NCBI GenBank assembly: GCA_007994965.1
Contig: VOPW01000001.1
Location: forward strand, 3,844,001-3,908,000
Direction: 5' to 3'
Length of the DNA: 64,000 nt
Origin: Piscinibacter aquaticus
GTDB taxonomy: Bacteria; Pseudomonadota; Gammaproteobacteria; Burkholderiales; Burkholderiaceae_C
The number at the start of each line of letters is the position of its first letter. Within the stretch, counting starts at the first letter, position 1. A program made the position numbers and the translations under genes. Below the pieces are notes generated by a model. The model searched no databases. It was not told the DNA's origin and saw only the letters and a list, made by a program, of their open reading frames with translations. Of this stretch, positions 15,106 through 26,040 are shown piece by piece.

Positions 15106-16919
15106 CTAGCGGAAGTCGCGATAGTCGTAGCGTTGCTTCGCCGGCTCGCACTGGAACGGCTTCTTCGCGCCCTCGGGCACCGGCTTGTCGCACTCGGCGA
15201 AGAAGTCGACCGACAAGGCATTGCGGAATTCGCGCAGCCGATCGGCGAGGTGGCGCGCCTTGTCGGTTTCGCCGATCTCGTCGAGCGCGGTCGCCCACGC
15301 CATCATGATGCGCGTGTCGAGAAGGTAGTGCGGTGCACGCTCGAACGCGGCCATCTGCTGCGACGGATGCTGCGCCGTCGTGGCCGCCGCGTAATCGGCA
15401 TGGTGCGCGAAGAACCAGCTGCGCTGACCCTCGGCGATGCGCTGGGCCAGCGGCGTGGCGTTGGCCGGCGGCGCGAAGATCACCGAGACGCGGCGGTAGT
15501 CGATCACCGAAGCAGCGCTGCCGAAGGTCAGCAGCGTGGCCACCAGCAGCCAGAGGCTGAAGCGCGGCCGGATCGATGCCGGCGCACGATCGGTGGCCGG
15601 CCCCCCAGCGCGATGCCGAAGGCGAACGCGGCCGGCAGCAGGAAGTAGGCGTACCACAGCGGATATTCGAGCAGGCTGTGCAGCGAGATCATCACCACCA
15701 TCGCCAGCGCGGCGCGGCGCAGCGCCATGTCATGCGGTGCGCCATCGAGTGAATCGCGCCGGGCTCGCCACAGCGCAAACAGCAGCAGCGCGACAATCAG
15801 CGCGGCCAGCGGCACGCCGAGCTCGGCGGCGAGCTGGAGCGGCAGGTTGTGCGTGTGGTCGAAGAAGGCGATGGGGCGGCCGGGGAAGACGGTGAGCGAC
15901 CAGGCGAAGTTGAACTCGCCGAAGCCCACGCCCACCCACGGGTGCGCCGCGATCAGCGACAACGCGTTCGACCAGATGGCGAAGCGTGAACTGGAGATGT
16001 CGGACTTCTGCAGCTGCACCTCGCCGCCGAACACCGCCGCCTGCTGGTGGGCGATGGCCGAGTACAGCTCGTAGAAGGCGAAGTACGCCAGCGGCGCCAG
16101 CCACAGCTGGACGCGCGCTGCGCGCGACAGGCGGCGATCGACCAGCCCCCACAACGCCAGCAGCGCGGCGCCGACCATGCCCGTGCGCGAGGCGGTGAGC
16201 GTCACCCCGGCCAGCAGCAGGAGCAGCAGAACTGGTGCAAGGCGGCGGGGCAAGCGGCCGCTCTCGGCCAGCCACAGCGTGGCGATCATGGCCCACAGCA
16301 GCAGGCTGCTCTGGTGGTTGGGCTGGCGCAGATTGCCGACCGCTCGATCGCCGAGACCGCTCACCGCGATCCACGTGCCGTCGGCCCACTGCGGCAGGTA
16401 GACCTGCACGAAGCCGATCAGCGTGCTGGCCACGCCGGCGACCATCAGACCGATGCAGAACGCAGCGAAGGCGCTGTCGCCCAGCCCGTGGCGCTGCAGC
16501 GCGGCCGCGAGCGCGGCGACCAGCATGGCCGCAGCGATCATGCCCAGCGCTGGCAGCGCCGGGCTCCAGGGCAACGCGGCCCAGAACGGCGCTGCGAAGG
16601 CGCCCGCCGCAACCAGCAGCAGTGCCGCCAGCAGTGCGGCTGGTCCCGGGCCGTGTAGCGCCCGGCCCGCGGCAGCAGGCAGGGCGGCCGCCAGCAGCAT
16701 CGCCCACGCGCCCCAGCCAACCATCGAGGCAGCCTGGTTGAGGAAGGTCGCCGACGGCGAGACGTTGAAGGCGATCAGCGTTGGCGCAGCCACCGCCGCA
16801 GCGGCCGCGAAGAAGCCGAAGGTCCACGGGACCGGCGGCTCGACGCGGCCATCGCGCGGAAGGTTGTCTGCGCTGCCCATCGACGCTGGAGGTTCCGGCG
16901 CACCGGCGGGTGCGCCCAT
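15106..16919 (-). CDS. PglL-type O-oligosaccharyltransferase (Wzy_C ligase), copy 1
   Basis: Polytopic inner-membrane enzyme of the PglL/PilO/WaaL class that moves lipid-linked glycans onto proteins, most likely pilin. About twelve membrane helices are present. G-N-L-R-Q-P-N-H precedes the ligase core. The periplasmic loop W-V-G-V-G-F-G-E-F-N-F-A-W and H-T-H-N-L-P-L-Q carries the conserved His. The C-terminal soluble part has W-F-F-A-H-H-A-D-Y and ends R-Y-D-Y-R-D-F-R, the same ending as the next gene. The frame breaks near 15600. It starts 5 bp after copy 2. The two are clear paralogues from tandem duplication. Confidence 0.87.
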
Positions 16920-16924
16920 GGCTG

Positions 16925-18672
16925 TCAACGGAAGTCCCGGTAGCTGTAGCGACGCTGCGGCGCCTCGCACTGGAAGGGCCGCCCGCCGTCCGCCGCCGGC
17001 GGCTGCGCGCAGACCGCGAAGAACGCCTCGTACTCGGGCTTGCGGAACTCCTTCAGTCGCGCAGCGATGAAGCGCGCCTTGTCCGTCTCGCCGCGCTGCG
17101 CCAGCGCGATGGCCCAGGCGTGCAGCAGGCGCGCCTCGAGCACCGCGTGCGCCGAGGCCGTCGGCGCAAGCCGCCGCGAGTCGGGCGCTGTATTGACGCG
17201 CGCAAAGTCGGCCCAATGAGAGAAGAACCAGCTGCGTGAGGCGGTCTCGATGCGTTGCGCCAGCTCCACCTCGCGGATCATCCCGAAGATCGGCAACACC
17301 CTGGAGAACTGGTACAGAGACGCCACCGAGAGCACCAGGGTGGCCACCAACCCGACCGGCAGCAGCGGTGGCGGCTCGGGACGCGGCGCAGCGGCGTCTG
17401 CCGGCGCACCGTCGGGCGTCACGAGCAGGCCGAAGAGGAATACCGTCGGCAGCAGCAGGTGCGCAAACCAGAGGTGGATCTCGATCAGGCTGAACACCGC
17501 CATGAGCAGCAGCATGACGAGCCCGGCTCGGCGTGCGCCGAGCTGCGACGGCTCGCCGCCGCGCGCCAGGCCGACGGCGCGCCACAGTGCCCAGCCGAGC
17601 AGGGCCACCAGCACAAGAGCCAGAGGGATACCCAGCTCCGCGGCAAAGTGCAGCGGCAGGTTGTGCGCGACGCTGAAGTAATCCGGCGATCGGTTCGGGA
17701 ACTCGTGCAGCGTCCAGGCGAAGTTGAACTCGCCGAAGCCGACGCCTGTCCAGGGATTCTCGCGGACCAGCGCAAGCGCTTCCGCCCACAGACTGCCTCG
17801 TGAGTTCGAGACGTCATTCTCCTGCAGCCTTGCCTGACCCCAGAACGCGACGCCCAACAGACCGGACACCGACGACACCAGACCGAACAGCAGTCCGTAG
17901 AGGACAGGTGAGGCGATCAGCCACCCACGCAGACGCCGCGGCAGGCCACGGTCGAGCGCGCCCCATAGCGCGAACAACAGCACCCCCATCGTGCCGCTGC
18001 GCGAGGCCGTGATCACGACGCCGAGCAGCAGGAAAGCGATCAGGGCACCGCTCGTGCGGCGGGACAGTCGGCCCTGGCTGTCCAGCCAGACGGCGCCTGC
18101 GATCGCCCACAGCAGCAGGGCACACAGGTGGTTCGCCTGCCGGAGGTTGCCGACCGCGCGGTCGCCCGAGAGGCTCGCGGCGATCCAGTCATTGCCGGTC
18201 CAGGCGGGCGCATAGAGCTGCATCAGCCCGATCACCGTATTGAGCACGCCGGCGACCAGCAGCGCACGGCAAAAGGCGTCGAAGGCCACGCGCCCGGCAC
18301 CGCCGCGCTGCAGGCACATGGCGGCCCAGGCAACGAGCAGCGCCGCGACCAGGCCGCCACCGCTCGACAGCGCCATCGACCAGGGCCGGCCCGTCCACAG
18401 CGGACTCGTGAGCGCACACGCGACCAGCAGCGCCAGGACGGCCAGCAGCGCCATGCCGGGCCACTCGGCGCTGCCGCGCTTCACCGAGCGGCCGGGCGGC
18501 AGGCTGAACAGCAGCAGCAGCAGCCAGAGCGACCAGCCGATCAGCGCAGTGGCCTCGTTGAAGAAGCTGGGGACGGGGGCAAGCCAAGGCCAATGACCTG
18601 CGGCAGCGCCACGGCCAGCAGCGCCCCAGCCAGGACCAGGGCAGGGCGGGCGGCAGGCTCGATGGGCGTCAC
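16925..18672 (-). CDS. PglL-type O-oligosaccharyltransferase (Wzy_C ligase), copy 2
   Basis: Paralogue of the gene at 15106 with the same architecture: membrane helices, G-N-L-R-Q-A-N-H, the loop W-T-G-V-G-F-G-E-F-N-F-A-W, V-A-H-N-L-P-L-H, a soluble tail with W-F-F-S-H-W-A-D-F, and the end R-Y-S-Y-R-D-F-R. GTG at 18672 overlaps the stop of the TfpX/TfpZ-like gene by four bases, so it is translationally coupled to the pilin accessory gene. One frame break near 18585 lies between the first helix and S-F-F-N-E-A-T. A pilin-specific TfpO/PilO role is inferred from position. Confidence 0.87.
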
Positions 18673-19447
18673 TTGATGAACCCGTCCAGCGGCAGGTAGC
18701 CACGCGGCTCGCCGTCGCTCAGAGAGACCAGCGCCACCCATTGGTCCGAGACGGGCCCGATCATTGGCATGAAGCCGAGTTGATCTGCAGGCAGGCCGAC
18801 CCGCATCACCGCCTCGTCGATGAGTTCACGACGATCGGCGTAGTGGCTCGACAGCACCGTCAACGGCCGCGCCGCACGGATGGCCTCTTCGCGTTGTGCC
18901 TCGAATGCCACCCAGCGCTCGGGCCGGAACGAGGGATGCAGGCCCTGCAGCGAGAGCTGGACACTCAGCGGATAGTCCTTGTCGGTGGGCCGCGCCGGCG
19001 CGCGCCGATCAGCTGGGGCCCGCTCAACCCGAAGTGCTGCAAGGCGGGCGGAGCCTTGTCGAGCTGGGTCGTGTCCACGTCGGGCAGCCGGACGACGCGG
19101 AACCGGTCGCCCTCGAAGGCGACGAACACCGGACGCGCCTCGATCACGGTGTAGAGGCCGTAAGCCAGCGCAGCACATTGCACCAGCACGATGGTGCCGA
19201 GATCGAGCGCCAGCTTGCGGACCCCCTTGGCCCGGTCGAAGACGACGGTGGTCAGCAGCGGGCCGCAGATCACGTCCACCGCCACCAGGATGTAGAAAAT
19301 CTCGCGACCACCGACGAGACGGTCCAGCGGTGCCGGGTAGAGCACGCCAAACACCAGCCACGCGCTTGCCGCGGCGACCAGCGCGCTGAACACGAGATGC
19401 GTGGCGCCCGCCTTCAGGGCAGAGCGCGTTCGTTGCCGAAAAACCAT
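18669..19447 (-). CDS. TfpX/TfpZ family type IV pilin accessory protein
   Basis: About 260 residues with three or four N-terminal membrane helices (H-L-V-F-S-A-L-V-A-A-A; I-F-Y-I-L-V-A-V-D-V-I-C-G-P-L-L) and a soluble C-terminal half. This is the TfpX/TfpZ pattern, known to assist assembly of particular pilin types in Pseudomonas. It lies directly behind the pilin gene and in front of two oligosaccharyltransferases, as expected. The frame breaks near 18985. A hairpin between pilin and this gene should lower its expression relative to pilin. Confidence 0.83.
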
Positions 19448-19513: not shown

Positions 19514-20020
19514 TTACTTGCACTCGGCCGGAGCGAAGCGGGCGGCAAGCGTGCCGGTCGTGGTGCCGGTAAAGCTGCCAGGGCTCGCGCCGGCGGCCAT
19601 GCAGCGCCAAGCCACAGACTGGGCCGGGGGCGTGAACGTCGCACCGGCAGCGGGCGGGAGTGCCGAACCGACCGGGGCATTCGGGGTCAGGTACAGCGTA
19701 CCGCCACCTGCCGCCGCCGTAGTCGAGACTTCAATGACGCCAGTGTCGCCATCAATCAGGATGCTCTGAACGTTACGCGTAGGGGCGGGGCTGGTATAGC
19801 CGAGCGCGTAGCCGGAGCCGTTAAGCGACGGATTGCCCGACGACAGCACGTCCTGCACGTTGACCTTGGCGGCCGAAGCGCCGACCAGGCCTTCAGACAC
19901 GCGGGCACGGACCGTGTAGTCCTGGTAGGCCGGCAGCGCAACGGCCGCCAGAATGCCGATGATCGCCACGACGATCATCAGTTCGATGAGGGTAAAGCCT
20001 TGTTGGAAACGACGCTTCAT
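19514..20020 (-). CDS. pilA: Type IV pilin (major pilin, PilA-like)
   Basis: 168-residue prepilin. The leader M-K-R-R-F-Q-Q-G is cut by prepilin peptidase before [10 protein letters not shown]. The Glu at mature position 5 is present. A long hydrophobic helix follows. Near the end, Cys in W-R-C-M and in P-A-E-C-K can form the C-terminal disulfide loop. The sequence is rich in Ser, Thr, Ala and Gly, suitable for O-glycosylation by the adjacent PglL-type enzymes. The ATG at 20020 is preceded by CAGGAGTCCTC. Upstream lie a sigma-54 promoter and repeated sites. The frame is intact. Confidence 0.92.
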
Positions 20021-20062: not shown

Positions 20063-20078
20063 TGCGAAGGGCGTGCCA
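20063..20078 (-). promoter_or_regulatory. Sigma-54 promoter of the pilin gene
   Basis: On the minus strand: TGGCACGCCCTTCGCA, against the consensus TGGCACG-N4-TTGCA. The GG and GC are separated by exactly 10 bp as RpoN requires. Transcription would start about 30 bp before the pilin ATG. Pilin genes are commonly RpoN/PilR-dependent. Confidence 0.8.
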
Positions 20079-20118: not shown

Positions 20119-20187
20119 CTGACGCAAAGGGTCACAGTCGGTCCGGGGCTCCGGACGCGTCCGGTCTCGACTGACGCAAATGGTCAC
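20119..20187 (-). repeat. Direct repeats upstream of the pilin promoter (probable activator sites)
   Basis: Two 17-bp copies differing at one base, CTGACGCAAAGGGTCAC at 20119-20135 and CTGACGCAAATGGTCAC at 20171-20187. They are in the same orientation and 52 bp apart, about five helical turns. They lie about 40 and 95 bp upstream of the sigma-54 -24 element, where enhancer-binding proteins such as PilR bind. PilR binding is inferred. Confidence 0.65.
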
Positions 20188-20217
20188 CCGACCCAAGTGC
20201 TTGTGATCCAACGAAAA

Positions 20218-20235
20218 ACGGGCCCGAAGGCCCGT
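20218..20235 (-). terminator. Rho-independent terminator after the cyclic-nucleotide phosphodiesterase gene
   Basis: Stem ACGGGCC/GGCCCGT with a four-base loop, followed on the minus strand by TTTTC. It lies about 37 bp past the stop at 20272. It closes the signalling gene run and separates it from the pilin promoter. Confidence 0.78.
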
Positions 20236-20271
20236 TGTTCAGTGCTCGCTTTCGCCGCTTCGAGAAGCGCG

Positions 20272-21066
20272 TCACGCCTCGCCGATGCGCATCACCTGCC
20301 CCGCCGAAAGCGCACGGATGCGGTGGCTGCTGGCCAGCTTGCCGACCTCGCTCATCACCGCCTCGGTCTCGCCGGGCTTGATGTGCGTGACGTGCACTTC
20401 CACGCTGCCGGGCAGCTGCGCCAGTTCATGGCCCAGCGCGGCCGGGCACAGGTGCCGGCTGATGTAGGCGAGCTGCCGCTCCTCGTCGCTGAAGGCCGTC
20501 TCGATGACGAGGTGCGCCACCTTCATGTGGCGCAGGCGGATCCACAGCGCCGGGTTCGGCCCGGTGTCGCCCGTATAGACCCACCAGCCCTTCTCGTCGC
20601 CCTGGCCGCCATCGATCGCGAAGCCGCAGGCCGGCACGGTGTGCAAGGCGGTGATCACCTCGACGCGCTTGCCGCCGACCTCGAACTGGTTGCCCACCGC
20701 GAAGGGCACGAGTTGCAGTACCGGCTGCTCCGCACTGGGCAGCCGCGTGAAATCGGGCCAGATCACGCCATTGAAGATGTGTGCGCGCAGTGCCGCGAGC
20801 GTCTCGGGAAGCGCATGCACCTTGATCGGCCCGCGGCCGGCCGCGCGGCGGGCGCGCATCACGCTGTCGGCCAGCAGGCCGATGGCCAGCACATGGTCGA
20901 GGTGCGAGTGGCTGATCAGGATGTGGTCGATGCGCGCCAGCGCCTCGAGCGAGAGATCGCCCACGCCGGTGCCGGCATCGACGAGCACGTCGTCGTCGAT
21001 CAGGAAGGACGTGGTCCTGCAGCCAGCCGCGATGGCGCCTGAGCAGCCGAGGACTTTGACGATCAT
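20272..21066 (-). CDS. MBL-fold 3',5'-cyclic-nucleotide phosphodiesterase (class II-like)
   Basis: 264-residue metallo-beta-lactamase fold hydrolase. The metal motif H-S-H-L-D-H is at residues 53-58, a close match to the class-II cAMP phosphodiesterase signature H-x-H-L-D-H. Later ligand positions fit Y-T-G-D-T-G and V-T-H-I-K-P-G-E. The ATG at 21066 overlaps the stop of the adenylate cyclase gene by four bases. This pairing strongly suggests that the protein breaks down the nucleotide the cyclase makes. The frame is intact. A general MBL hydrolase role cannot be excluded from sequence alone. Confidence 0.78.
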   Translation of the reverse strand: MIVKVLGCSGAIAAGCRTTSFLIDDDVLVDAGTGVGDLSLEALARIDHILISHSHLDHVLAIGLLADSVMRARRAAGRGPIKVHALPETLAALRAHIFNGVIWPDFTRLPSAEQPVLQLVPFAVGNQFEVGGKRVEVITALHTVPACGFAIDGGQGDEKGWWVYTGDTGPNPALWIRLRHMKVAHLVIETAFSDEERQLAYISRHLCPAALGHELAQLPGSVEVHVTHIKPGETEAVMSEVGKLASSHRIRALSAGQVMRIGEA

Positions 21067-23201
21067 TTGCTGTCGAAGGTGCGGGTGCCGTCCCATTCGG
21101 GCGGCTCGGGTTGCAGGGACCAGCGCTCGATGCGCTCGCCGAGCTGACGATACAGGCCCGCCAGCGCCGAGCTGCCGAAGCCGTCACGCAGGGCAGCCAG
21201 CGAAGTCAGCGCCTGCTTGGCATCCTGCCGGCGGTAGTGGACGAGCGCAAGGTTCCAAAGTCGCACTTCTTCGGCAAAGCGCGAATCGTTCGCATGAACC
21301 CGCGAAACGGGCGTGAAAAGCGTCACGGCCTGCTGCTTGCCCTTGACGCGAACGCGGTCGACTTCGATGAGCGGCAGCGCTTCGCGGACGGCCTCCTTCG
21401 TGGCTTGGCCGAGCACGATGTCGACCTCGTAGATGCGCGTCAGCGCCTCGATGCGCGAGGCGAGGTTCACCGCATCGCCCATCACCGTGTAGCTGCGGCG
21501 GATGTCCGAACCCATGTCGCCGACGCACACCAGCCCGGTGTTGACGCCGATGCCCAGGCCGATCTCCGGCAGGCCGCGTTCGCGCAACTCGCGATTGAGC
21601 CCATCGAGCCGGCCGATCATCGCCAGCGCCGCCTGCACGGCATGCAGCGCGTGGTCGTCGTCGGCCACCGGCGCGCCCCAGAAGGCCATGATCGCGTCGC
21701 CGATGTATTTGTCGAGCGTGCCGCGGTGGGCGCGGATCTCTTCGGTCATCGCCGAGAAGAAGCGGTTGATCAGCGCGCGCAGTTCTTCCGGCGGCAACGC
21801 CTCGGAGATGCGCGTGAAGTTGCGCATGTCGCAGAACATGATGGTCAGGACGCGGTTCTCGGCCTGCATGCCGTAGCGCTGCGGATCGCGCGCCATCTGC
21901 GCCACCAGCTCCGGCGGCACGTAGGTACCGAACAAGCGCGCGAGCTGCCGGCGCCGCGCGCCTTCCACCACCACGCCCCAGCCGGTGATGCCAGCGTAGA
22001 CCAGGGCGGTGAGCAGCAGCGCGGAGGCCAGCGGCAGCGCCGGGCCGTGGCGGCGGTACAGCCACTGATCGATGGCGATGAGCGCTGCCGCCAGGCCGAG
22101 CGTGGCGAATGCCGCTGCCGCCGGGCGCAGGCGCGGCAGCAGCAGCGCGAGCAGCGCGGTCACGGCCAGCAGCTGCGCCACCTCGTAGCCGCGCGACCAG
22201 TCGGGCGCCAGCGGCCCGCGGCCGTCGAGCAGCCCCGAGAGCACGCTGGCGTGCACCTCCACACCGGGGTACACCGCGGCCACCGGTGTGCTGCGCAGGT
22301 CGAACACCCCGGGCGCGCTGGAGCCAACCAGCACCAGCTTGCCGGCGAGCGTGGCGGCGGGCAGCCTGCCTTCGATCAGGTCGGCCGCGGACACGTAGTC
22401 GAAGGAGCCTCCGGCCGGCCCGCCCGCGCCGCGAAACGGCACCTTCACCGCGCCACGCGCGTCGAGCGGGATGCGCAGCCGGTCGTTGCCCTGCTCGAGC
22501 TCGATCGCCGCGAGCACCGGGCCGGCCAGCACCGGCTGCACGCGCGGCGAGCCGGCATGCAGGCGCAGCATCGCCAACGCCAGCGATTCGCGCAGCGCGC
22601 CATCGACTTCGGCCAGCAGCGGCAGGCTGCGCACGACGCCGTCGACATCGGGCAGGGCGTTGAAGAAGCCCGCCACCGGCGCCGCCGTCGCCAGCGTCTC
22701 GACACTGGCGGCGTGGCCGCTCCAGCGCGCGACCGCAGGACGATCCGCACCGAGCGCTTCAGGCGGGATGACGGGCGGCGGCAACACACCGGTGCGCTGC
22801 GCGGCAGGGCCGTTCGAGACGATGTAGCCCAGCACCGCCGGCCGCCCGGCGAGCGCCCGCGCGAGCACCTCGTCGCCATGCTCTGGTTCGGCGAACGCGA
22901 GGTCGAAGCCAACGGTGGCCGCCTGCTGGCGGCCGAACAACTCGTCGGCCAGCGCGGCGATACGCTCGCGCGGCCAGGGCCAGCGGCCGATGCGGGCGGG
23001 GCTGGCGTCGTCGATGTCGACGATGACGATGCGCGGATCCTTGGTGCCCGGCAAGGCCGCCCGCAGGCGCGCGTCGTCGATGGCGAGGTCGAGCTGCTGG
23101 AGGAAGCGCAGCGGCGCGATGCCGCTGGCATGCAACAGGGTGAAGGTCAGCGCAAAGCCCAGCAGGGCCCAGCGCAGCACACGCAGCGCGCGGGGACTCA
23201 C
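21063..23201 (-). CDS. CHASE2-domain class III adenylate cyclase
   Basis: 712-residue inner-membrane signalling enzyme with an intact frame. N-terminal helix at about 8-28, a large periplasmic CHASE2 sensor (about 30-330), three helices (about 335-410), then a class III cyclase domain. Metal-binding Asp occur in M-F-C-D-M-R-N-F-T and Y-I-G-D-A-I-M-A-F-W-G. The Lys of L-D-K-Y-I-G-D sits where adenine-specific cyclases carry Lys. Transition-state N and R lie in V-N-L-A-S-R. Product cAMP is therefore likely. Start is GTG. It is coupled to the phosphodiesterase gene and lies 31 bp after the FHA gene. Confidence 0.88.
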   Translation of the reverse strand: MSPRALRVLRWALLGFALTFTLLHASGIAPLRFLQQLDLAIDDARLRAALPGTKDPRIVIVDIDDASPARIGRWPWPRERIAALADELFGRQQAATVGFDLAFAEPEHGDEVLARALAGRPAVLGYIVSNGPAAQRTGVLPPPVIPPEALGADRPAVARWSGHAASVETLATAAPVAGFFNALPDVDGVVRSLPLLAEVDGALRESLALAMLRLHAGSPRVQPVLAGPVLAAIELEQGNDRLRIPLDARGAVKVPFRGAGGPAGGSFDYVSAADLIEGRLPAATLAGKLVLVGSSAPGVFDLRSTPVAAVYPGVEVHASVLSGLLDGRGPLAPDWSRGYEVAQLLAVTALLALLLPRLRPAAAAFATLGLAAALIAIDQWLYRRHGPALPLASALLLTALVYAGITGWGVVVEGARRRQLARLFGTYVPPELVAQMARDPQRYGMQAENRVLTIMFCDMRNFTRISEALPPEELRALINRFFSAMTEEIRAHRGTLDKYIGDAIMAFWGAPVADDDHALHAVQAALAMIGRLDGLNRELRERGLPEIGLGIGVNTGLVCVGDMGSDIRRSYTVMGDAVNLASRIEALTRIYEVDIVLGQATKEAVREALPLIEVDRVRVKGKQQAVTLFTPVSRVHANDSRFAEEVRLWNLALVHYRRQDAKQALTSLAALRDGFGSSALAGLYRQLGERIERWSLQPEPPEWDGTRTFDSK

Positions 23202-23232
23202 GGCGCGGCGGCCGGGGCCCGGACCGCCCGGA

Positions 23233-23906
23233 TCAGGCCTGGACGAACTGCATCTGCGTGCCGGCGAGTTCGACGACGTCGCCGTTCTTCAGCTGCACGG
23301 TTTCGCTGGTCACCGGCGATCCGTTGATGGTGGCCGCAGCGCCCCTTCGACGTGGGCCAGCACGTAGCCGCCCGGGCGCTTGGTGATCGAGGCGACCTGC
23401 ACGCCCGGCTTGCCGACGGTGGTGACGACCTTGGTGAGCATGACTTCGCGGCCGGCCGCCGCACCGTTGAGCACCTTGATCGAGGCCGGGCCGGAACCGC
23501 CGCCGAGCGAGCCGAAGCCCGAGGCCCCGAAGCCCTGAGTCGGCTGGTAGGCCGCGGGCCCGGCCGCCGGCGCCGCGGCGCCCGGCTTCATGATCATCGT
23601 CTTCTCGTAGTCGGTACCGTCCTCGACGAGGTACTTGATCTTGTACTTGCCGATCTCGACCGTATCGTTGTGGCTGAGCAGCTGCTTCTTGATCGCCTTG
23701 CCGTTGATGTAGGTGCCGTTGGTGCTGTTCAAGTCTTCGATGAAGACGTCGGCACCCACCATCTGCAGGACGGCGTGCTCGCCGCTGACGGCGAGGTTGT
23801 CGATCACGATGTCGTTGTACGGACGGCGACCGAGGGTGGTCTTGTCCTTCGTGATCTGCACTTCCTTGATCACCACTCCGTCCAGCGATACGACCAGCTT
23901 GCCCAT
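23233..23906 (-). CDS. Double-FHA-domain phosphothreonine-binding protein
   Basis: About 224 residues. Two forkhead-associated domains are separated by an Ala/Gly/Pro-rich linker. The first has L-G-R-R-P-Y-N-D-I-V-I-D, S-G-E-H-A-V and L-N-S-T-N-G-T-Y-I-N-G-K. The second ends with A-T-I-N-G-S-P-V and L-K-N-G-D-V-V-E-L-A-G. FHA domains bind phosphothreonine, so this is the natural reader for the adjacent Ser/Thr kinase. The frame breaks near 23340, inside the second FHA domain. It is not part of a type VI secretion cluster here. Confidence 0.87.
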
Positions 23907-23959
23907 GCTCGTTGTCCTCGTGATCTCTGTTCTGTTTTCTGTCCGACCCGGGTGCGGTC

Positions 23960-24769
23960 TCAGCGCCGGAAGGGCCACCACGATCGCGCCGGTCCCGCCG
24001 GGCCGCGTACTCTGGCGAGTACCACCGAGATATTATCCTTTCCGCCTGCGTCATTGGCGGCGTCTACCAGGGCGGCCCCTACTTCGGCGAGCGAGTCGCT
24101 GCCTTGCAACAGCTGCGCGATGCTTTCGTCGTCGAGCATGTCCGAAAGTCCATCCGAGCACAGCAGGTAGAGATCGCCGGGCATCACGTCGTGCAGGTGG
24201 GTCTCGAGCAGCACGGTGTCTTCGACGCCCACGGCGCGCGTGACCAGATTCTTGTTCGCCGAGAACGCAGCCTGCTCGGCCGTGATCAGGCCGGAATCGA
24301 TCTGCTCCTGCAGCAGCGAATGATCGTGCGTGATCTGCGCCGGGCGCCCGCCACGTAGCCGGTAGCCGCGTGAATCGCCCACGTGACCCATCAGCAGGCG
24401 GCCCTCGCGGAACACGCCTACCACCAGCGTCGTGCCCATGCCGGCGTACTGCGGGTTGGAGTTGGCGGCGTTGAAGATCGCGCGGTTGGCGTTGTCGACG
24501 CAGATGTCCATCGCACGCCGCACGTCGGTGTCGGAGGCGTTGTCGGAGGCTTCCGACAGCCAGCGGCCCAGCTCGCTCTTGATGAACGAGGTGGCCATGC
24601 CGCTGGCCACTTCACCGGCGTTGTAGCCGCCCATGCCGTCGGCCAGCACGATCAGCCGCGACTCCTCGTCGACCGCCACCGAGTCTTCGTTGTTGTTGCG
24701 CGCCCGGCCCGTGTCGGTTGCGCTGAAGAACTCCAGGGTCATGGTGGAAGCGGCGTCGGGCAAGGTCAT
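23960..24769 (-). CDS. PP2C-type Ser/Thr protein phosphatase (Stp1/PppA-like)
   Basis: 269-residue metal-dependent phosphatase. Motifs: N-N-N-E-D-S, V-L-A-D-G-M-G-G, G-H-V-G-D-S-R-G-Y-R-L, L-C-S-D-G-L-S-D and G-K-D-N-I-S-V-V, with all the acidic metal ligands in place. It reverses phosphorylation by the neighbouring kinase. The start could be at 24769 or at the internal Met at 24742, since the protein family usually begins near M-T-L-E-F-F. It lies 40 bp after the kinase and 53 bp before the FHA gene. The frame is intact. Confidence 0.91.
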   Translation of the reverse strand: MTLPDAASTMTLEFFSATDTGRARNNNEDSVAVDEESRLIVLADGMGGYNAGEVASGMATSFIKSELGRWLSEASDNASDTDVRRAMDICVDNANRAIFNAANSNPQYAGMGTTLVVGVFREGRLLMGHVGDSRGYRLRGGRPAQITHDHSLLQEQIDSGLITAEQAAFSANKNLVTRAVGVEDTVLLETHLHDVMPGDLYLLCSDGLSDMLDDESIAQLLQGSDSLAEVGAALVDAANDAGGKDNISVVLARVRGPAGPARSWWPFRR

Positions 24770-24809
24770 GGGCAGGAGGGCCGGGTTTCTGGCGCCCCGG
24801 CGCTGGCTC

Positions 24810-26040
24810 TCACGAGGCGGAATTGTGCCTTGGTTCGTCGCGGCTGAACGTCACGGTTTTCTCGAACTCGTCATTTGGCGTGGCAGATGGCAGGGCCGGC
24901 GCGGCCATGGCGGCCGCCACGGCGCGCAGATCCTGCGCCATCTGCAGCCCGTCGGCATAGCGCACCTCGGGGCGCTTCTCCAGCGCCAGTGCCACGACAT
25001 CGGCCAATTCCTGGGGAAGATCGGGGCGCAGGTCGCGAAGCGCCGGGGCCGGCTCGTTGACGATCCGCCGCATCAGCTCGGCCATGCTGCCACCCTCGTG
25101 AGGCAGCTGGCCGGTGAGCAGCTGGAACAGCATCACGCCGAGCGAGTAGAGGTCGCTGCGGCCGTCGGTGCGCCGGCCCGCCATCTGCTCGGGCGACATG
25201 TACGAGGGCGTGCCCAGCACGATGCCGGTACGGGTGCGGCTGGCGTCGTCGACGCGCGCCACGCCGAAGTCCATCACCTTCACGAGGCCGCTGTCGAGGC
25301 CGACCATCACGTTGGCGGGCTTGATGTCGCGGTGGACCACGCCCTGCGCGTGCGCATAAGAGAGCGCTTCGGCCACCCGCGCGGTGATCTCCAGCACCTG
25401 CGTCACCGGCAGCAGCCGTCCGGCGGCGGTGTGGCGCTGCAGGTCTTCGCCCTTCACATGCTCCATCGCGATCCAGGCCAGCTCGCCCGTCTCGCCCGCG
25501 TCGAAGACGGTGACGATGTCGGGATGGTGCAGCCGACCGGCGGTCTCGGCCTCGCGGAAGAAGCGCTCGCGGGCTTCACCGATCTGCTCGCGGCCGAAGC
25601 TGCGTGAAAGCGCGAGGGTCTTGATCGCCACGCTCCGGCCGATCTGCGGGTCATGGCCGAGGTAAACCGCCCCCATCGAACCTCGGCCGATCTCGCTGTC
25701 GATGCGGTAGCGGCCAAGCGTCGACGGGCGCCCCTCGCCGGCAGCGGGGGTGACCTTCGCAGCCGTGACGGCGGGTGACGAGGCGTCTACCGCCGCGGGC
25801 GGCAGCGCGACCCGTCGCGGGGTGGGCCCGAGCGCGCGTCCGGCATGGCCGAACAGCCAGCCGATCAGGCCGGGCAAGGTCCACGTCGCGTTCCAGATGG
25901 CGGCCGACAGCAGCGCGGCTGCGGCCACGAGCGCCGTGACGATCCACGCCGCGGCGCGCTGGCAGCCTCGTGACGCCGAATGCAACCCACGCGGCGGCGA
26001 CCACCAGGCCGGCGACGGCAAGCGCGGCCGACGGATTCAT
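24810..26040 (-). CDS. Ser/Thr protein kinase with N-terminal membrane helices
   Basis: Hanks-type kinase. Two hydrophobic helices come first (A-A-L-A-V-A-G-L-V-V-A-A-A-W and I-V-T-A-L-V-A-A-A-A-L-L-S-A). The kinase domain follows with G-R-G-S-M-G-A-V-Y, V-A-I-K-T-L, H-R-D-I-K-P-A-N, D-F-G-V-A and G-T-P-S-Y-M-S-P-E-Q. All catalytic residues are present. No extracellular sensor (for example PASTA) is seen; the membrane part is at the N-terminus, unlike the common PknB layout. The tail is short and ends E-K-T-V-T-F-S-R-D-E, a possible autophosphorylation stretch. A frame break near 25970 lies between the two helices. Confidence 0.88.

Follow-up and report, generated by a model that had tools for sequence, protein, structure and literature searches.

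Five adjacent genes on the minus strand of a 64,000-nucleotide stretch of the Piscinibacter aquaticus genome (contig VOPW01000001.1, positions 3,844,001 to 3,908,000; hereafter the window) encode, in this order, a Ser/Thr kinase, a PP2C phosphatase, an FHA protein, a CHASE2 adenylate cyclase, and a metallo-β-lactamase (MBL)-fold protein that resembles phosphodiesterases (PDEs). The gene products and their neighbors suggest that the run might act as a switch by which Ser/Thr phosphorylation sets the level of cyclic AMP (cAMP) for a type IV pilus. Domains were assigned by Pfam and NCBIfam profile searches of the window proteins, and the features of the run are as follows.

24810..26039, minus strand: Ser/Thr kinase with a PknB-like domain (PF00069, 7e-48) and an N-terminal membrane segment, without PASTA domains
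24846..24866, minus strand: kinase C-terminal tail motif FEKTVTF, which resembles the FHA linker motif (sequence comparison)
23960..24769, minus strand: PP2C phosphatase of the Stp1/IreP family (NF033484, 242.3 bits versus a cut-off of 230)
23233..23906, minus strand: FHA adaptor (PF00498) with a canonical FHA domain, a linker, and a degenerate second FHA-like domain; frame-broken at ∼23317
23589..23612, minus strand: linker motif DYEKTMIM, a candidate phospho-threonine switch (sequence motif)
21063..23201, minus strand: CHASE2 class III adenylate cyclase (CHASE2, 1.4e-54; Guanylate_cyc, 5.8e-23)
20272..21066, minus strand: putative MBL-fold, atypical class-II-like cAMP phosphodiesterase with the motif SHSHLDH (Lactamase_B_2, 2.4e-15; PDEase_II, 9.7e-12)

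Calculated from these coordinates, the intergenic gaps are 40 (kinase–PP2C), 53 (PP2C–FHA), and 31 bases (FHA–cyclase), and the stop codon of the cyclase gene overlaps the start of the PDE-like gene as ATGA. Active-site motifs are retained in all four enzymes. The coordinates and family matches thereby bear out a preliminary description of this DNA, which reported five same-strand genes with gaps of 31–53 bp and a four-base overlap of the last pair. That account passed over three features described below: the frameshifts in the run, the degeneracy of the second FHA domain, and, most importantly, the pilin and motor genes that recur as neighbors.

The kinase carries the motifs GRGSMG, VAIK, HRDIKPAN, and DFG. 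No PASTA family was detected in the Pfam scan of this protein, and the model for PASTA kinases (PknB/Stk1, NF033483) was not reached (312 bits versus a cut-off of 450), the match covering the kinase portion only. Compared with the long kinase of its relatives, the window kinase is a short form. The kinase open reading frame (ORF) spans at least 840 residues in 29 of 37 kinase-bearing loci, and both of the two that were checked contain a CHASE2 domain. Queried against plasmids, the PP2C protein matched two distant phosphatases and nothing else.

Both domains of the cyclase score above their cut-offs (CHASE2, 185.8 bits; Guanylate_cyc, 81.9 bits). Six residues are the same in all of 25 aligned relatives: D458 and D502, which we take to be metal ligands, K498 and D576, presumably adenine-selecting, and N579 and R583, to which we assign roles in the transition state.

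Assignment of the last gene product is less straightforward. The protein matches PF12706 (57.1 bits), carries the SHSHLDH motif, and has metal ligands that are invariant in 27 relatives. Its ORF may begin at 21096, and the relatives align from 21066. The signature of atypical class-II PDEs is given as [T/S]HXHXDH (PMC9293780), and SHSHLDH fits it. Among PDB profiles, yeast 3',5'-cyclic-nucleotide PDE1 matches best (1.4e-12), narrowly ahead of RNase Z (9.1e-11). Fold comparison gives tied scores for a Bacillus anthracis ELAC homologue (Z 26.9), yeast PDE1 (26.6), and YhfI (26.6), with Escherichia coli ZipD/RNase Z close at 25.2, such that PDE1 is not separated from other MBL phosphodiesterases. 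The NCBIfam model for cyclic nucleotide-degrading PDEs (NF041851) was not reached, at 36.3 bits versus a cut-off of 400, and the RNase Z models, at 40–44, likewise remain far under cut-off. The protein had previously been called an HxHLDH phosphodiesterase. The motif, the MBL fold, and the best match to PDE1 agree with that name, whereas the score far below the NF041851 cut-off does not. A role as a cAMP phosphodiesterase is probable from these sequence features.

The FHA protein matches PF00498 in a whole-genome search (5.9e-19; 6.9e-23 for its orthologue in locus L003). Among 34 aligned rows, G26, R27, S41, H44, and N63 of the first FHA domain are invariant and G64 is nearly so, and the residues that bind phospho-threonine (GR, SxxH, and NG) are present. 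Only this first half of the 'double FHA' protein claimed initially keeps such residues: the second FHA-like domain, examined in the L003 orthologue, scores 14.3 bits to PF00498, under the cut-off of 20.7, and in the alignment it is without the GR and SxxH residues. The closest solved FHA domains by profile are those of GarA, OdhI, and DgcB. The same three are among the top matches when the fold of the first FHA domain alone is compared (Z 15–17 over 92–98 residues).

Between the two domains lies an island with the consensus D-F/Y-E-K-T-M-V/I-L/M, within a disordered stretch (residues 98–142 have pLDDT values <50 in the structure model). Of 80 FHA rows, in which L014 is counted twice and L017 and L019 are fragments, 58 match the strict pattern [DEQ][FY][EDN][KRA]T, the window protein among them, as against two matches in the 187,316 residues of the other cluster-family segments. 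This motif offers a concrete site for a phospho-switch, and we infer that its threonine may be phosphorylated by the co-encoded kinase. The similar motif in the kinase tail was rejected as a general rule, since beyond the window it occurs, as FE(K/R)TVTF, only in L003, L004, L005, and L007; it is changed in L006 and missing from the other kinase tails examined.

Two genes of the run are interrupted in this assembly. The reading frame of the FHA gene breaks near 23317, where one base is missing relative to the intact genes of L003 and L004. The kinase N-terminus switches frame near 25975; the ATG at ∼26039 is in a different frame from the kinase domain, and the continuous ORF comprises 24810–26021. 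The assembly, in 3 contigs, has a completeness of 77.14%, and it also contains a frame-broken rpoD-like gene, identified by eye, and a broken TfpZ-like gene. For these reasons, assembly or sequencing error is a more likely cause of the frameshifts than gene loss.

Conservation of the gene order across the Burkholderiales had been named beforehand as one test on which the proposal would stand or fall, and the order is conserved. We compared 80 loci from betaproteobacteria and some gammaproteobacteria that had been retrieved by similarity to the CHASE2 cyclase, a selection because of which the presence of the cyclase is overstated in this set. All five genes occur in the same order on one strand in 32 of the 80 loci, one of which, L074, matches the PDE weakly; contig ends interrupt many of the remaining loci. 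The PP2C gene lies immediately upstream of the FHA gene in 71 of 77 FHA-bearing loci. In two gammaproteobacterial loci (L045 and L054), a kinase–PP2C–FHA trio is located on the strand opposite a nearby CHASE2 cyclase gene, which indicates that the trio and the cyclase are separable. Two further loci (L126 and L127, in genomes G028 and G106) have tandem PP2C–FHA pairs on one strand with a kinase gene between them on the opposite strand, and neither cyclase nor PDE.

A comparison of 250 genomes of the order Burkholderiales gave a similar picture. With thresholds of E ≤ 1e-15 for FHA, ≤ 1e-40 for the cyclase, and ≤ 1e-30 for the PDE, the families are present in 151, 152, and 147 genomes, respectively. 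Neighborhoods were compared at 120 FHA, 112 cyclase, and 128 PDE places, together with 102 places for a pilus motor (E ≤ 1e-180) and 27 for a protein with cyclic nucleotide monophosphate (cNMP)-binding and rhodanese domains (E ≤ 1e-30); these places are the listed matches, weaker and unlisted ones being excluded. The FHA gene is followed by the cyclase gene in 62 of its 120 places, 51 with the PDE gene next and 11 without a listed PDE, and it is followed directly by the PDE gene in another 25. Viewed from the PDE gene, the 128 places divide into 51 with FHA–cyclase–PDE, 27 with a cyclase and no listed FHA, 25 directly after FHA, and 25 with the PDE alone. Thus, the PDE gene directly follows a cyclase gene in 78 of 128 places; the cyclase–PDE junctions are tight, and many overlap. 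On these counts, the three families are linked pairwise.

Cyclase–FHA fusions provide a second, independent link between the two families. A whole-genome search of the window genome found two PF00211 cyclases and two PF00498 FHA domains in total. One pair consists of the operon neighbors described above, and the other is a single ORF in which the cyclase precedes the FHA domain.

L095:4345-5349 (contig G000:C1), minus strand: class III cyclase–FHA fusion, the only other cyclase and FHA found in this genome (profile search)

Relatives of the fusion are present in 53 of the 250 genomes, and in 85 of the 87 listed matches the similarity continues into the FHA portion. The same cyclase–FHA pairing therefore occurs in two forms.

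The linkage of the five-gene run to type IV pilus genes is also well supported. In relatives, the run continues with an ATPase of ∼795 residues (GAF, MshEN, and T2SSE domains), a GAF-HD-GYP protein, and a type IV pilin. Two of the downstream products concern the interpretation given below.

L022:12003-14378 and relatives: PilB-like ATPase with an added GAF domain (T2SSE strongly matched)
L009:10978-12063, L022:10939-12003, L059:11093-12181: cNMP-binding and rhodanese protein directly after the PDE gene (domain searches)

The PilB-like motor is present in 107 of the 250 genomes. It lies within 3 kb after the PDE gene in 86 of 128 places, at a distance of no more than 600 bases in 71 of these; of the 102 motor places, 86 have a PDE gene upstream. 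The L022 motor remains under the cut-offs of both PilB (TIGR02538, 455.9 versus 675.65 bits) and GspE (TIGR02533, 408.6 versus 630.25 bits). A same-strand pilin gene follows within 9.5 kb downstream in 32 of the 77 FHA loci, and it does so in 16 of the 39 loci whose downstream sequence reaches 9.5 kb or more; none of the 77 showed a pilin upstream or on the opposite strand. Because the length of the downstream stretch differs among loci (38 of the 77 have <9.5 kb), 'absent' often means that the sequence ended. In a minority of loci the cNMP-binding and rhodanese protein, present in 24 of the 250 genomes, lies between PDE and motor, and in 14 of its 27 places it directly follows the PDE gene. 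It is a possible candidate for the cAMP receptor of this run. Shorter arrangements also occur within the family to which the window genome belongs: PP2C–FHA–pilin (G204 and G133), PP2C–FHA–cyclase–pilin (G171), and FHA–pilin with no PP2C called (G093).

The mechanism that we favor begins with the membrane kinase and the PP2C enzyme, which would set the phosphorylation state of the FHA linker threonine (E-K-T). Once phosphorylated, the linker would bind the first FHA domain of the same protein, either in cis or between molecules. Binding would alter the contact of the FHA protein with the CHASE2 cyclase, and perhaps with the PDE, such that cAMP rises or falls, and cAMP would in turn serve the type IV pilus or a related filament function. 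The window lineage may have lost the motor part while retaining the pilin. We give this general proposal, that a Ser/Thr-phosphorylation switch sets cAMP for a type IV pilus, about an even chance of being correct. A more specific version, in which the locus is a widespread betaproteobacterial pilus-control system whose GarA/DgcB-like, kinase/PP2C-switched FHA adaptor directly sets both cyclase and PDE, with cAMP and cyclic di-GMP (c-di-GMP) converging on a dedicated motor and pilin, is held more tentatively and at somewhat less than even chance.

Several observations weigh against a phosphorylation switch of this kind. The FHA gene has neither cyclase nor PDE adjoining it in 33 of 120 places, and a kinase is encoded upstream in just 42 of the 77 FHA loci. 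No strict linker motif occurs in 22 of the 80 FHA rows; two of these rows are linker-less fragments, and L014, L060, and L124, where the cyclase is present, are also among them. The cyclase C-terminal tail motif WDGTRTF is equally conserved in cyclases that lack an FHA neighbor, and it varies at its threonines. For both reasons it is best viewed as a trait of the cyclase family and was rejected as a shared phospho-motif. Within the family of the window genome, the FHA gene of G093, G133, and G204 is followed by the pilin gene with no cyclase or PDE match, which suggests that FHA can work without cAMP. This arrangement and the loss of the strict motif in L014, L060, and L124 weigh most heavily against the proposal. 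Finally, neither the motor (1e-180) nor the cNMP–rhodanese protein (1e-30) was found in the window genome or in the six other listed members of its family.

Alternatively, the locus may have two arms, with kinase, PP2C, and FHA acting directly on the pilus machine and cyclase and PDE forming a parallel arm. PP2C–FHA is the most constant pair, and in L105, L119, L120, L128, and L133 it is followed directly by a pilin or motor gene with no cyclase or PDE. There is also a precedent in Sulfolobus, where an FHA protein, kinases, and a phosphatase are reported to regulate the archaellum, a filament similar to the type IV pilus. However, the cyclase–FHA fusions favor a direct link, as do the 51 of 120 places where the cyclase gene separates FHA from PDE, and we find the two-arm arrangement possible and on the whole doubtful. 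A looser form of independence, in which the regulators are co-located without cross-talk and are kept together by shared expression alone, would account for the partial versions that exist in many combinations. It fits poorly with an order that is kept across the 80 beta- and gammaproteobacterial loci, and with the existence of fusions, and we judge it quite improbable.

Two other alternatives concern the nature of single components. If the MBL protein is another phosphodiesterase or an RNase Z-like hydrolase, then the operon makes cAMP and does not break it. The low NF041851 and RNase Z scores and the tied fold comparisons are compatible with this alternative, whereas the PDE1 profile match, the class-II signature (PMC9293780), and the position directly after the cyclase gene in most PDE places speak against it, and together they make it unlikely. 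The same three activities of kinase, PP2C, and FHA (PpkA/PppA/Fha) also form the threonine-phosphorylation pathway of the type VI secretion system, from which the run could have become detached. This origin was rejected because the L003 FHA protein is far under the cut-off of the TagH model (TIGR03354, 42.9 versus 120.25 bits); the recurrent neighbors are moreover pilus genes, and the chance that it applies is exceedingly small. The preliminary description saw no type VI secretion genes in the surroundings, a negative reached without running models of the secretion components over the window.

Each part of the proposed switch is of a known kind: control of a cyclase by an FHA domain is known from DgcB, and control of a filament from the archaellum. 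In Bdellovibrio DgcB, the tail N-L-E-K-pT-S-I-V is bound by the FHA domain of the same protein, an interaction that is tied to activation of the diguanylate cyclase (PMC6733907). The likeness comprises an FHA domain, a nucleotide cyclase, and a threonine tail with a hydrophobic residue at −3, Glu at −2, Lys at −1, and hydrophobic residues at +2 and +3. The shared FHA-tail pattern described there is hydrophobic at −3, +2, and +3, with Glu at −2 and Ser at +1, and the window motif fits it save for Met in place of Ser at +1 (PMC6733907). However, DgcB is one protein that produces c-di-GMP and carries its tail N-terminal to the FHA domain, whereas the window encodes a separate adaptor and a cAMP-forming enzyme, with the motif on the C-terminal side of the first FHA domain.

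GarA and OdhI, whose FHA domains come closest among solved structures in both profile and fold, similarly carry a kinase-controlled threonine beside the FHA domain. Their phosphosites have the sequence ETTS. Both regulate 2-oxoglutarate enzymes, and the OdhI model (NF041660) gives the L003 protein 59.2 bits versus a cut-off of 200. In GarA and OdhI proper the motif is N-terminal to the FHA domain, whereas in the window it follows the first FHA domain. The archaellum network, with ArnA/ArnB, the kinases ArnC/ArnD, and PP2A, shares with the window an FHA protein, kinases, a phosphatase, and a filament resembling the type IV pilus. It differs in being archaeal and in having a vWA partner, and the available text mentions no cAMP enzymes.

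Counterparts of the remaining components are also known. The Sinorhizobium enzymes CyaD1, CyaD2, and CyaK are CHASE2 class III cyclases that supply cAMP for the CRP-family regulator Clr, and the main text of that report does not mention FHA (PMC13001267). Atypical class-II PDEs of the Rv1339 type share with the window protein the MBL fold, the [T/S]HXHXDH signature, and a kinship to RNase Z (PMC9293780); the NCBIfam model of that kind is not reached by the window protein, as given above. The motor of the relatives combines T2SSE with MshEN, as do MshE-type ATPases, in which MshEN binds c-di-GMP, and it differs from them in the added GAF domain and in being under the PilB and GspE cut-offs.

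In eukaryotes, protein kinases are closely tied to cAMP; for bacteria, they are generally regarded as separate systems. A search of the open-access literature found no description of this five-gene run, subscription papers being mostly outside its scope. The presence of a writer, an eraser, a reader, a cAMP maker, and a probable breaker beside pilus genes makes a pathway from Ser/Thr phosphorylation through cAMP to the pilus testable, and the candidate linker threonine gives it a site that can be mutated. If the hypothesis is true, then it would establish a bacterial route from Ser/Thr kinases to cAMP for a surface filament. It would also assign a function to a common and unstudied FHA family and to the PilB-like GAF/MshEN motor, which accompanies the run in dozens of the sampled genomes.

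The window itself contains a pilin locus beyond the PDE gene, with the following features.

20217..20236, minus strand: terminator-like hairpin after the PDE gene, kept in four relatives
20119-20135 and 20171-20187, minus strand: two 17-bp boxes GTGACC(A/C)TTTGCGTCAG upstream of pilA
20063..20078, minus strand: weak sigma-54-like −24/−12 match before pilA, with one mismatch
19514..20020, minus strand: type IV major-type pilin (pilA; N_methyl and Pilin domains)
18669..19447, minus strand: TfpX/TfpZ-like accessory protein for type IV pilin, with its coding sequence divided between two frames
16925..18703, minus strand: PglL-like protein of the O-oligosaccharyltransferase/O-antigen ligase family
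frame 15528-17789, minus strand: second PglL-like gene

The conserved hairpin suggests that pilA is probably transcribed on its own. The two boxes, 52 bases apart, have no further copy in the genome when up to one mismatch is allowed, and they are recognizable in four relatives. They are TGAC-N7-GTCA dyads and thus have a TGA-N9-TCA spacing. CRP sites have a spacing of N6, and we therefore rejected these boxes as the CRP/Vfr-type site that had been anticipated at pilA. The sole point in favor of the sigma-54-like match is that its position is conserved in five aligned loci; 0.96 such matches are expected by chance in the window, and 24 of 100 shuffles give at least two. The idea of a glycosylated pilin is plausible given the TfpZ-like and PglL-like genes 3' of the pilin gene, with the modification itself being a prediction.

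The strongest cNMP-binding match in this genome (L085) is a CRP/FNR-like protein, identified by eye, that has His where CRP has its phosphate-binding Arg, and we do not claim it as the cAMP receptor for this reason. A single ORF located ∼53 kb outside the window (G000:C1:3790075-3791019; L090:1396-2445, minus strand) joins a Ser/Thr kinase domain to a cNMP-binding domain that follows it. It resembles a cAMP/cGMP-dependent kinase, and its N-terminal part lies in another frame.

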